A stretch of 64,000 nt of DNA, taken from the NCBI RefSeq assembly GCF_003369835.1, contig NZ_QPMJ01000004.1, positions 1 to 64,000 on the forward strand. The letters are read 5' to 3'. Source of the DNA: Halorussus rarus (GTDB lineage Archaea > Halobacteriota > Halobacteria > Halobacteriales > Haladaptataceae). Both the position numbers and the translations under genes were made by a program. The first letter of the stretch is position 1. Every line of letters begins with the position of its first letter. The notes beneath the pieces are model-generated. The model saw only the letters and a list, made by a program, of their open reading frames with translations, made no database searches and was not told the DNA's origin. Shown here one piece after another: positions 53,042-57,729 of the stretch.

Positions 53042-55510
53042 GTGTTCGTGAGTGAGCAGCGGTCCTTCCCACCCGAGGCGGACCCGTCCGCGAATCCCGA
53101 GAGCTGTCTCGAAGCCCTCCGGGCGAGCCCGTCGTTCCGCGGCCCCGCCGAGTCGCTCGACGGCCACGCCCACGCCAACGACCACTTCGCGCTCGTCTAC
53201 GACTCACGCGAGGAGCAGTTCGCCGCCGCCGTCCCGTTCATCCGCCAGGGCCTCGACCGCGGCGAGCGGTGCGTGTACATCGCCTACGAGAACTCCAGGG
53301 AAGACGTCCTGGCGGCGATGCGGGAGTGCGGCGTCGACGTAGACGCCGCGCTCGACTCGGGCCAGCTCTCGGTCCACGACGAGACCGAGACCTACCTCCG
53401 GAACGAGACGTTCGACGCCGACGAGACCGTCGCGTTCCTCGACGCCGCCATCGACGCAGCGGACGAGGAGTACGAGGGGCTCCGGGTGACCGGCGAGATG
53501 AGCAGCGTCCTGGAGGAAGACCCCGACGGTGAGGAACTCGTCCGGTGCGAGGCCAAGGCGAACTACCTCTTCGACGACGTGGACGGCATCGCGCTCTGCC
53601 AGTATAACCGAAACCGGTTCCCGTCGGACGTCATCCGGGACGTCATCAGCACCCACCCGCTGCTCGTCCACGACGGGCGTGTCAGCCACAACGTCTACTA
53701 CACCCCGCCCGAGGAGTTCTTCGGTCCCGAGAAGTCCGAGCGCGAGGTCGACCGCCTGCTCGGGTCGCTCGGCGACCAGACCGACGCGAAAGCAGAACTC
53801 CGGCGACGAGAACGATACCTCCGCGAGAGCTACCGGATCACGGCCGACCCCGCGCTCGACTTCGAGGAGAAGCTCCACCGCCTCCTCGACCTCGCGCGCG
53901 AGCGGATGGACCTCGACGCGGCCGGGTTGACCCATCTCCCGGAACAGGGCGGCGAGTTACTCACCGAATACGCCATCGGATACGGGAACGACGACGGTGA
54001 CGGCGACGGTGAAAGCAACGACGACGTTGTCGACGCGTCCGACGACGTCTGGACCGACCCGGGCGAGGGCTGTTTCTGTCGGCAGGTGCTCGCCGAGGAC
54101 GAGCCGGTCGGAAAGGCCGACGTCCGGGGCACCGAGTGGGAGGACGACGAGATTCACCGCGAGCACGGCCTGTCGTGCTACCTCGGCACGAAGGTGACGA
54201 GCGGGTCGACGCCGTACGGGACGCTCTGGGTCGGGAGCACAGAGCCCCGTGAGCGGCCGTTCTCCGAGACCGAGCGGACATTCCTCGAGTTGATGGGTCA
54301 GTGGGTCAGCTACGAGCTCGACCGGCGGCGGCGCGAGCGAGAACTCCGCGAGCGCACGGAGCACCTGAGCGCGCTCATCGAGACCGCCCCGGAGTGCATC
54401 AAGACCGTCGCCGCCGACGGCACCCTGCTCCAGATGAACCCCGCCGGGCTCGAGATGGTGGAGGCCGACTCGGCCGACGCGGTGACCGGCGAGTGCATCT
54501 ACGACGTCATCGCCCCGGAGGACCGCGAGCGGTTCCGGGAGTTCAACGAGCGCATCTGCAGCGGCGAACGCGGCACCCTCGAGTTCGATATCGTCGGGCT
54601 GAACGGCACGCGGCGCCACATGGAGAGCCACGCCGCGCCGCTGCACAACCCGGACGGGACCACCGCCCACGTCGCGCTCACCCGCGACGTCACCGAGCAG
54701 TTCGAACGCGAGCGCGAACTCGAAGAGACCATCGAGAAGCTCGAGGAGTCGAACGAGCGTCTCGAGAGCTTCGCCAGCATGCTCGCCCACGAGCTCCGCA
54801 ACCCCGTCGCCATCGGCCAGATATACAGCCAACGGCTCCCGACAGGGACCGACGCGGCGGCGGTCGAGTACGTCACCGAGGCGTTCGACCGCATCGAGGA
54901 CATGGTCGACGTCATGCTGGTGTTGACTCGCGGCCGGGAGGCGGTCGGCGACCGGGCGCCGGTCGACCTCGCGGAGACGGTCCGGACCGCGTGGGGCGAC
55001 GTGGAAGCCCCGGACGCCTCGCTCGACGTCGATCTCGACCGTACAATCGAGGCCGACGAGACGTACCTCCGCCACCTCTTCCGGAACCTTCTCCAGAACG
55101 CTGTCGAACACGGTTCGACAAGCCGTCGGCCACAGGCCGACGACGTTCATCAGACGGAGTCTGATGCAGCCCATCAGAAATCTTCGATTTCTGAGGACGC
55201 CGTGGAACACGGTTCCACGAGCCCTCGCTCGCAACCTCGCGAGGACGCCGTCGAGCACGGCGGACCGGACGTGGCCGTCACCGTCGGCTACCTCCCGACG
55301 GGGTTCTACGTCGCCGACGACGGGCCCGGCATCCATCCGGAGGACCGCGACGCGGTCTTCGAGCCGGGGTACACGACGGCCGAGGACGCCGGCGGCACCG
55401 GCCTCGGGCTGGCGTTCGTCCGGAAGCTGGTGGAGGTGTACGAGTGGGAGTGCACCGTCGCCGAGAGCGACGCCGGCGGCGCCCGGTTCGAGTTCCGGAA
55501 CGTCTTCTGA
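53042..55510 (+). CDS. MEDS-GAF-PAS sensor histidine kinase with repeat insertion
   Basis: An 822-residue cytosolic sensor kinase. Residues about 45-235 are a MEDS-type sensory domain (HFALVYDSREEQFAAAVPFIRQGLDRGERCVYIAYENS). A GAF domain spans about 270-425, a PAS domain about 447-555 (LIETAPECIKTVAADGTLLQMNPAG), then the H-box MLAHELRNPVAIGQIYS (H583). The N-box (FRNLLQNAVEHG, about 680-690) is followed by about 49 extra residues with VEHG repeated three times. G1 is VADDGPGIHPED and G2 is GGTGLGLAFV. The start is GTG 53042 or GTG 53048. A 23-codon frame (52984-53055) overlaps the start and may be chance. Targets are unknown. Confidence 0.9.
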   Translation: MFVSEQRSFPPEADPSANPESCLEALRASPSFRGPAESLDGHAHANDHFALVYDSREEQFAAAVPFIRQGLDRGERCVYIAYENSREDVLAAMRECGVDVDAALDSGQLSVHDETETYLRNETFDADETVAFLDAAIDAADEEYEGLRVTGEMSSVLEEDPDGEELVRCEAKANYLFDDVDGIALCQYNRNRFPSDVIRDVISTHPLLVHDGRVSHNVYYTPPEEFFGPEKSEREVDRLLGSLGDQTDAKAELRRRERYLRESYRITADPALDFEEKLHRLLDLARERMDLDAAGLTHLPEQGGELLTEYAIGYGNDDGDGDGESNDDVVDASDDVWTDPGEGCFCRQVLAEDEPVGKADVRGTEWEDDEIHREHGLSCYLGTKVTSGSTPYGTLWVGSTEPRERPFSETERTFLELMGQWVSYELDRRRRERELRERTEHLSALIETAPECIKTVAADGTLLQMNPAGLEMVEADSADAVTGECIYDVIAPEDRERFREFNERICSGERGTLEFDIVGLNGTRRHMESHAAPLHNPDGTTAHVALTRDVTEQFERERELEETIEKLEESNERLESFASMLAHELRNPVAIGQIYSQRLPTGTDAAAVEYVTEAFDRIEDMVDVMLVLTRGREAVGDRAPVDLAETVRTAWGDVEAPDASLDVDLDRTIEADETYLRHLFRNLLQNAVEHGSTSRRPQADDVHQTESDAAHQKSSISEDAVEHGSTSPRSQPREDAVEHGGPDVAVTVGYLPTGFYVADDGPGIHPEDRDAVFEPGYTTAEDAGGTGLGLAFVRKLVEVYEWECTVAESDAGGARFEFRNVF
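55103..55244 (+). repeat. Tandem three-base-loop hairpins inside the kinase gene
   Basis: Five perfect inverted repeats, each with a three-base loop: 55103-55119, 55124-55142, 55148-55166, 55174-55194 and 55201-55219. Stems are 7, 8, 8, 9 and 8 bp, separated by 4-7 bases. A sixth weaker one with a longer loop spans 55223-55244. They encode the VEHG-bearing insertion in the N-box and keep the reading frame. Confidence 0.85.
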
Positions 55511-55599
55511 AACCAGTGTGATGCCGCGGTTCCGCCGCCTTCGACTCCCGGCTTGCCCGTGCCCACACGCTCAAGGTGGCGGCCCTCAACGCGGTGGAC

Positions 55600-57729
55600 A
55601 TGAGCGACCCGCTCGACTTCGAGGACTTCTACGACCTGACGCTCGCGACAGACCTCGCCGTCTCGCCCGACGGCGACCGCGCGGCGTTCGTCGCCGACGA
55701 GTTCGACCGCGCCGAGGACGACCGCCGGCGCTCGCTGTTCGTCGTCCCGACCGACGGGAGCCGCGAGCCCCACCGGCTCACCCGGGCCTCCGACGCCGGC
55801 GCGCCGGCCTGGAGCCCCGACGGGACCAAGCTCGCGTTCACCGCCGCGCGCGAAACCGACGCCGAAATCGCCGTGACTCGTCGAGACGACGACTCGGACG
55901 ACGCGGTGGACGAGGACCCGGAGGGCGAAGCAGAATCCGAAGACGACGGTGAAAGCGACGAGGACGATGCCGATGCAAACGCCGACGCCGACGAACCGAA
56001 GCCCCAGGTCTGGGCGTTCGACCTCGACCTCGGCGGCGACGCCCGCCAACTGACCGACTTCGAGGAGGGCGTCAGGGGGTTCGACTGGGGACCCGAGGGC
56101 GAGCGCATCGTCGCCGCGGCCCGCGACCCGACCGACGACCAGCGCGAGTACCTCGAATCCCGGCGCGAGGACGACGGCCCGATCGTCACCGAGCGCCTCC
56201 AACACAAGTTCGACGGCCACGGCTGGCTCGACGACGTGAATACCTACCTCTTCGTCGTGGACTGCGAGACCCGCGAGGTCGACCGCCTCGACGACGCCTA
56301 CGGCGGCGGCGCGCGAGAACCGGCGACCGGCCTCCAGCCGGCGTGGTCGCCCGAGGGCGGGCGAATCGCGTTCCTCTCGAACCGGACCGACCGCCCGGAC
56401 GACAGCTACGTGATGGACGTCTACACGATAGCGCCCGACGGGAGCGACTGCCGGAAGCTGACCGACTCGGACCTGACCGCCAGCGGGCCCCGGTGGCACC
56501 CCGAGGGCGACCGCCTCGCGTTCGTCGGCGGCGACCCCGAGAACTGGTACCGGCCGTCGGAGGTGTACGTCGCGGAACTCGCATGTAATGCCGACGAAAC
56601 AGAGAGCGGCGCCCACGAATCGTGGTCGGGCGACCTCGACCGGACCGTCGCCAGGTACGGCCGGCTCTCGTGGGACGGCGACGACCTGCTCGCTGCCATC
56701 GCCGATGAGGGATTGACCCGTCTCGCGCGCTTCAGCGAGGGCAACGAGCCCGAGCGCACCTTCGGCGCGCAGGGCCGCGACCGGACCGTCGAGGGGTTCG
56801 ACGCGCGGGCCGGCGCGTCGGTCGCGGTCCTCTCGGACCCGGAGGCCGGCGCTGACCTTTTCGCGGTCGGCGTCGACGGCCTGGACGCCGCCACCGAGCC
56901 GACGAGACTCACCGCGCTCAACGAGGACCTGGTCGCGGACCACCACACGCCCGAGGCTCGGCGGTTCACCTTCGAGTCGGAGGGCGACGAGATAGAGGCC
57001 ATCGCCTACTTCCCGGACGACGTCGACCCCGACGACGCAGCTTCGGATTCCCGCCCGCTCGTCGCCTCCGTCCACGGCGGTCCCATCTCCTACGACGCGC
57101 CGACGTTTTCGTTCGACTTCTCGTACTGGACCGGACAGGGGTACGTGGTCGTCCGGACGAACTACCGCGGGAGCTCCTCGTACGGCCGCGAGTTCAGCGA
57201 GCAGATCCGCGGCGAGTGGGGGCCGCGCGAGACGGCCGACGTGCTGGGCGCGGTCGACGCCGCGGTCGAGCGCGGCTGGGCCGACCCCGACCGGTGTTTC
57301 GCCACCGGCTTCTCCTACGGCGGCATCACGACCGGCTACCTCGTCGCGGCGAGCGACCGGTTCGCGGCGGCCGCGGCCGAGCACGGCGTCTACGACTTTC
57401 GGTCGGCGTTCGGCACCGACGACAGCCACCTGTGGTGGGAGAACGATTTCGGCCTGCCGTGGGAGAACCCTAAGGGCTACGATGCGGCGTCGAGCATCAC
57501 CGACGTCGGAGCGGTCGATACCCCGCTGCTCGTGACCGCCGGCGGCGAGGACTGGCGGTGCCCGCCGTCCCAGAGCGAGCAGCTCTACGTCAGCGTCAAG
57601 AAGCAGGGCGTGCCGGCGCGGCTGGTCGTCTACCCGGACGAGCACCACGCCATCGGCGACCCCGACCGGGCGACCCACCGCCTCCGGGAGCTCACCGAGT
57701 GGTTCGAGCGCCACGACCCCGGAACCTGA
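55600..57729 (+). CDS. S9 family peptidase (prolyl oligopeptidase-like)
   Basis: A 709-residue acylaminoacyl-peptidase-like serine peptidase. A beta-propeller (about 1-440; blades such as AWSPDGTKLAFTA, LQPAWSPEGGRIAFLSNRTDRPDDSYVMDVYTI) is followed by an alpha/beta-hydrolase domain. The triad is S572 (GFSYGG), D651 (GGEDWRCP) and H682/H683 (PDEHHAIGD); VHGGPI supplies the oxyanion loop. An acidic low-complexity insert lies at about residues 95-135. It would trim peptides in the cytosol; no signal peptide is seen. ATG 55600 (MSDPLDFEDFYDL) is preferred over an in-frame ATG 8 codons earlier. It ends 29 bases before a convergent gene. Confidence 0.93.
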   Translation: MSDPLDFEDFYDLTLATDLAVSPDGDRAAFVADEFDRAEDDRRRSLFVVPTDGSREPHRLTRASDAGAPAWSPDGTKLAFTAARETDAEIAVTRRDDDSDDAVDEDPEGEAESEDDGESDEDDADANADADEPKPQVWAFDLDLGGDARQLTDFEEGVRGFDWGPEGERIVAAARDPTDDQREYLESRREDDGPIVTERLQHKFDGHGWLDDVNTYLFVVDCETREVDRLDDAYGGGAREPATGLQPAWSPEGGRIAFLSNRTDRPDDSYVMDVYTIAPDGSDCRKLTDSDLTASGPRWHPEGDRLAFVGGDPENWYRPSEVYVAELACNADETESGAHESWSGDLDRTVARYGRLSWDGDDLLAAIADEGLTRLARFSEGNEPERTFGAQGRDRTVEGFDARAGASVAVLSDPEAGADLFAVGVDGLDAATEPTRLTALNEDLVADHHTPEARRFTFESEGDEIEAIAYFPDDVDPDDAASDSRPLVASVHGGPISYDAPTFSFDFSYWTGQGYVVVRTNYRGSSSYGREFSEQIRGEWGPRETADVLGAVDAAVERGWADPDRCFATGFSYGGITTGYLVAASDRFAAAAAEHGVYDFRSAFGTDDSHLWWENDFGLPWENPKGYDAASSITDVGAVDTPLLVTAGGEDWRCPPSQSEQLYVSVKKQGVPARLVVYPDEHHAIGDPDRATHRLRELTEWFERHDPGT

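Follow-up and report, generated by a model that had tools for sequence, protein, structure and literature searches.

Rickettsia palindromic elements (RPEs) are small repeats that are found between genes as well as in frame within many unrelated ones, whose proteins tolerate them (PMC10969869). The CGTC-tagged REPs (Di Nocera et al. 2013), which were described from five bacterial phyla only, have loops of 4–5 bases, A-T in the first two pairs and a CCA tail (PMC3733652). Among haloarchaea, Haloquadratum walsbyi carries the transposase-free, palindromic PATE and SMR elements; SMRs are ~110 bp long with terminal inverted repeats, SMR-A copies insert into IS605-type elements, and PATEs are IS605 ends (PMC3119063). 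We compared with these systems a row of hairpins in a histidine kinase gene of the window (the whole 64 kb stretch of DNA that was analysed). The gene and its hairpins are as follows.

53042..55510, + strand: sensor histidine kinase gene, 822 aa (from the open reading frame and Pfam; start codon putative)
55102-55120: perfect hairpin 1, stem 8 bp, loop ACG
55124-55142: perfect hairpin 2, stem 8 bp, loop ACA
55148-55166: perfect hairpin 3, stem 8 bp, loop GGA
55174-55194: perfect hairpin 4, stem 9 bp, loop TTC
55201-55219: perfect hairpin 5, stem 8 bp, loop ACG
55223-55244: weaker sixth hairpin, 6-bp stem, 10-base loop

The Pfam domains of the 822-aa kinase are MEDS, GAF, PAS, HisKA and HATPase_c, and the row lies in the interval from the N-box to the G1 box. 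An earlier note on this DNA had described a row of five perfect inverted repeats, each with a loop of three bases, and all five were present (55102-55219); the stems, given there as 7–9 bp, measured 8–9 bp, so that the lower figure has to be dropped. When three-base-loop stems of ≥7 bp were counted per 120 bp, the row contained five, compared with a maximum of two in 40 dinucleotide-preserving shuffles of the whole 64 kb window. The folding z-score of the row was –6.1 as RNA and –7.4 as DNA. Downstream, an S9-type peptidase gene (55576-57729) contains a long Asp/Glu-rich stretch (DDDSDDAVDEDPEGEAESEDDGESDEDDADANADADEP, at 55890-55990).

The boundaries of the insert were obtained from relatives that lack it. 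Five of these (L212, L214, L218, L229 and L230) read RNLLENAVEHGGPDVTVTVG or similar, and L203, the closest full-length relative, has a short unrelated spacer instead of the insert. The length obtained, 49 codons, accords with the approximately 49 extra residues estimated earlier. The following features were assigned.

55097..55114, + strand: N-box NAVEHG, with the catalytic Asn codon at 55097-55099; VEH completes the N-box helix
55101..55247, + strand: whole insert, 147 bp, three palindromic units (from insert-free relatives and paralogue L044)
55101..55145, + strand: unit 1, 45 bp, class III, encodes VEHGSTSRRPQADD-type sequence; hairpins 1 and 2
55146..55199, + strand: unit 2, 54 bp, class II, CATCAGAC..GTCTGATGCAGCCCATCAGA..TCTGAGGACG; hairpins 3 and 4
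55200..55247, + strand: unit 3, 48 bp, class I, GAGCCCTCGCTCGC..CTCGCGAGGACG; hairpin 5 and the weaker sixth hairpin
55244..55261, + strand: third DAVEHG, the displaced native VEHG, where the relatives' GGPDVTVTVG resumes

All three units terminate in ACG, and each consists of two hairpins and an AGC(C)-type linker. As had been noticed, the gene codes for VEHG three times, in NAVEHG (55097-55114) and in two copies of DAVEHG (55196-55213 and 55244-55261); the context on the left runs into the first NAVEHG, and that on the right follows on from the last DAVEHG. In the kinase alignment, N116 and H120 are invariant, and the insertion point is the Ala codon following the N-box Asn. Units of the class III type are also present in other kinases, and at least ten kinases of the same genome carry one or more units at the N-box site, while others carry none. 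One of the paralogues, L044 (C4:324837-325002), contains the three units in identical order. Its insert is 93% identical to that of the window kinase, compared with ~65–70% for the flanking blocks; therefore, the block was copied between diverged paralogues.

A genome search with the window insert returned matches beyond kinases, and the check proposed in the earlier note, a search for the palindromes outside kinases, found units both in intergenic DNA and in frame in many other genes. Intergenic copies lie, for example, upstream of an acetyl-CoA synthetase-like gene (L058/L110) and next to a tRNA-Ala (L060/L101). In-frame copies of the same genome lie within the metallo-beta-lactamase/rhodanese gene L054 and, in the part coding for its Nudix domain, within the gene of the Nudix/IF-2B protein L057. 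Elsewhere, they occur in genes for the cobalt-precorrin-7 methyltransferase CbiE (L234), a metallo-beta-lactamase of Natronorubrum and Natrinema (L235, L302), a VLRF1-type release factor (L196) and PEBP (L271), in TnpB genes (L232, L270, L289, L293, L294, L313 and L314) and in an IS240-type transposase gene (L295); in an NAD kinase gene (L299, 824-2296, – strand), a class II copy directly precedes the conserved TPVLGVPAGVK motif. Four further hosts (the HAD-like L178, and L168, L154 and L197) are putative, being named from sequence alone. The element is confined neither to kinases nor to the N-box. The earlier idea of a small palindromic element with the N-box as its safe site is thus supported and reaches beyond what was proposed, as the units are dispersed in intergenic DNA and in many other genes. 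We consider it very likely that the insert consists of three copies, arranged in tandem, of a palindromic element that is dispersed in haloarchaea and tolerated inside proteins.

The plan of a unit is (stem-3 nt-stem)-AGCC-(stem-loop-stem)-GACG, with a length of 45–54 bp, which is a multiple of three in the gene-internal copies checked. Copies would enter at CG/ACG sites with a direct repeat of a few bases at most, and genes that retain them would be read through in frame, the protein gaining a disordered, tolerated loop. Empty sites, which are species-level comparisons, were found for L235, where Natrialba magadii (L300) reads GGACGCC-GACGAACTC and Natronorubrum has an additional 48 bp, and for the beta-lactamase gene L054, in which the same 54-bp insertion as unit 2 sets the gene apart from its homologues at GGCG^TCGAGG; the junction repeats are of the CG/ACG type and 2–5 bases long.

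Several other arrangements of the units were observed. In the genus of the window, the double hairpin is also nested in a larger intergenic element (L101, L110, L115 and L118), whose outer stem is GTTTTGC..GCAAAA and which has an arm GGGAGCGCC..GGGGCGCGACC; the outer element also exists without the double hairpin (L103, L105, L120, L126 and L128), with the empty site GACCGC^GGTAAAA. An identical intergenic element with identical flanks is shared by L102, from the window's genus, and L192, from Halorussus aquaticus. In L242 (G069:C1:1176267-1176467), four class I cores are arranged in tandem with a 57-bp period. In a few genomes of uncultured Halobacteriales (e.g. QS_4_69_225), class I copies with the stem GGCAGAGC are numerous and almost identical (among them L131, L135, L138, L140, L149, L151 and L153), a pattern that suggests a recent expansion.

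The row could instead have grown in place from the N-box by snap-back copying and tandem duplication, with no mobile element involved. Units 1 and 3 do have the N-box sequence itself as their left stem, other kinases have tandem arrays of 45–51 bp units (e.g. L162), and reverse-complement loops, described below, point toward hairpin-templated exchange. However, GAGCCCTCGCTCGC..GAGGACG and GCAGCCCATCAGA..TCTGAGGACG are common to intergenic and other-gene copies in many genera, so that the parts other than VEHG were not made at the N-box. In-place growth, which we regard as very improbable as an account of the row, is contradicted for whole units; it could still hold for the origin of the VEHG stem and of the array length, and tandem duplication instead of insertion may account for part of array growth. 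Likewise, hairpin-primed copying, one of the origins suggested in the earlier note, was not the source of the row because its units are dispersed elements, each of a different class, although the upkeep of arm pairing does look hairpin-templated.

Within kinases, the dispersed element appears to be accommodated in a particular way. In an AlphaFold2 model built from 28 kinase domains, the N-box helix (103-121) is intact with the first VEH at its end, and the insert is without structure (pLDDT 48–63, compared with 77–98 elsewhere). Tolerance of the insert as a disordered loop is therefore plausible. As the left stem of the unit reads VEHG, insertion would rebuild the N-box helix around the catalytic Asn and push the native VEHG downstream, from which the DAVEHG repeats would result. 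In most non-kinase copies, the left stem is not VEHG and is often GGCAGAGC; outside kinases, a VEHG-type left stem was found in two genes, L196 (release factor) and L234 (CbiE), in which the target flank resembles the N-box (AVER). The VEHG stem may have been copied from the target, or the target may have been picked by similarity. A left stem that always is the target in inverted copy would match the kinases, L234 and L196, and weakly L235; as a general rule, it is contradicted by L168, L057 and the intergenic copies, and it is retained only as part of the more far-reaching reading given below.

We further analyzed the pairing of the hairpin arms, for which all covariation and loop counts include related copies and do not represent independent events. 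When the third codon positions of 150 VEHGST sites were compared, GTN/TCN paired at 127 sites and GAR/GGN at 115, compared with ~68 each after reshuffling. Both synonymous pairs match in 104 sites (31 expected; maximum 49 in 2000 shuffles). As to the refuting case named in the earlier note, the same protein insert without palindromes, 46 of the 150 sites are imperfect and 104 are perfect, and codon use does not explain the palindromes. Since these third positions are synonymous, their pairing is not forced by protein coding. The inner variable stem of class II is perfect in 81 of 86 13-mers (28.7 with shuffled arms) and in 41 of 47 15-mers (9.2), and class II loops are exactly 3 bases long in 127 of 150 cases. 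Reverse-complement loops are near-equal in number (GAA 24/TTC 21, GGA 8/TCC 12, AGA 6/TCT 7), and reverse-complement loop pairs occur on the same stem 13 times, compared with 3.1 expected and a maximum of 9. The window and L044 differ in one hairpin by such a pair, TTC/GAA; as the orientation of the surrounding element is unchanged and the loop is reversed, the hairpin tip must have flipped. We infer that the arms are kept paired by hairpin-templated repair, exchange or template switching.

These data also bear on two readings in which the palindromes are maintained for other reasons. If the hairpins merely followed from the codons of a repeat, VEHGSTSPRSQAREDA, on which selection acts for protein function, the GC-rich codon bias would ease the formation of palindromes, and the peptide is in frame and recurrent in many kinases; however, synonymous third positions covary as Watson-Crick pairs, the same hairpins are also found between genes, in different reading frames and in the reverse orientation on the other strand, and the insert is predicted to be unstructured. 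This reading is extremely improbable, and we rejected it because of the synonymous covariation and the non-coding copies. Alternatively, an RNA element acting in mRNA stability, termination or as a regulatory RNA might keep the arms paired, as the strong predicted RNA fold, the covarying arms and the intergenic copies, some of them close to tRNA genes, would allow. We regard such a function as unlikely, as no Rfam family matched among seven tested loci, the gene contexts are very varied, and the perfect Watson-Crick pairing of the arms, the scarcity of G-U pairs and the flipped loops fit a DNA process equally well.

The dispersed element likely spreads by recombination between similar sites, for example between paralogues. 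Class II copies are common inside TnpB and also occur in IS240-type genes; they are in frame, occupy several different positions and point either way; therefore, it is also likely that copies pass between genomes by riding inside IS elements. In TnpB genes of several genera (L312-L315, L317 and L318), one class II copy lies in frame mid-gene and a second, inverted in-frame copy lies near the C-terminus, ~720 bp apart (peptides …HSESTSSES…DFRTPVETALP…). The units might themselves be terminal-only, PATE-like remnants of IS605/IS1341 (TnpB) transposons mobilised by TnpA/TnpB: their size and hairpins resemble the 52-bp terminal-only PATEs of Haloquadratum (PMC3119063), and class II copies are frequent within TnpB genes and at their 3' part. 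The TnpB copies, however, are in-frame coding insertions rather than clear transposon ends, the Y1 transposase TnpA (PF01797) had no match in the window's own genome, and the only TnpB locus of that genome is without element sequence, which makes such an origin quite unlikely. No mobilising enzyme tied to the element was found. A more far-reaching version of the dispersed-element reading is that mobile double hairpins occur throughout Halobacteria, insert without a known transposase and have stems that hairpin-templated DNA synthesis rewrites, with the target or another stem as the source, thereby adopting local coding sequence (VEHG in the N-box) and entering proteins without disrupting them; we offer this tentatively and consider it doubtful.

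In a search of 84,980 bacterial and archaeal species genomes, 70 stretches contained the class I core, all of them from Halobacteria by record title, and the core is present in 40 of 292 Halobacteria genomes (17/77 genera). The class II core is more widespread (91/292 genomes, 40/77 genera) and had no match in the controls. The VEHGST pattern occurs in 186 of 292 Halobacteria genomes from 52 genera; most of the 29 loci inspected were kinase N-boxes and a few were unrelated. On plasmids, class II was found at 57 places in 40 records; when the best place per record was considered, ~38 were in unannotated stretches and two under 'transposase'. The class I core is also present on pNRC100 of Halobacterium salinarum. 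Carriage by viruses or phages was considered as well and set aside: with the patterns used, viral contigs had no match to the class I core, and phage records had none to the window insert.

The haloarchaeal units resemble RPEs in being in frame in unrelated protein genes as well as intergenic, and they appear, by analogy, to be an archaeal counterpart of them. However, RPEs are bacterial, ~150 bp long and have a conserved peptide per family, whereas the haloarchaeal units are archaeal double hairpins of 45–54 bp with freely variable stems, are read in more than one frame and on both strands, encode a varying peptide and have a recurrent site in the kinase N-box. As in the CGTC-tagged REPs, a tag adjoins the hairpin stem (the reverse strand of the units starts with GCGTC), stems are 8–9 bp, there is no dedicated transposase and some copies lie inside genes (PMC3733652), but the loops have 3 bases, the pairs next to the tag are G-C-rich and each unit has two hairpins. 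The element shares RPE behaviour and the CGTC tag, lacks the other defining features and is assigned to neither family. The GTAG tag of the RAYT-mobilised REPs and REPINs is absent from the consensus, and a RAYT/Y1 link was rejected for this genome, which has no Y1 transposase match. The nearest haloarchaeal parallels are PATE and SMR: class II units sit in TnpB genes as SMR-A do in IS605-type elements, but PMC3119063 describes neither as an in-frame protein insertion, the comparison made here being one of descriptions. As regards MITEs, the junctions show only the CG/ACG-type repeat of 2–5 bases and no partner transposon was identified. In fungal mitochondrial DNA, double-hairpin elements are dispersed as units of two small tandem hairpins. 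The units resemble these in their tandem hairpins and differ from them in that the fungal elements belong to organelle DNA. No description of the haloarchaeal repeats was found in the open-access literature searched, which leaves most subscription papers outside, and VEHGST/NAVEHG returned one unrelated paper only.

Many haloarchaeal histidine kinases have VEHGST-type repeats that would otherwise be taken for protein domains, and the element accounts for them. Its covarying arms and reverse-complement loops are a record, left in nature, of DNA changes templated by hairpins. Palindromic repeats that code for protein have been known chiefly from Rickettsia, in which their spread and their tolerance by proteins still await an explanation. 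Another such system, found in archaea that can be cultured and that include model organisms, and with a landing site that recurs in an enzyme fold already well understood, would allow both points to be tested.
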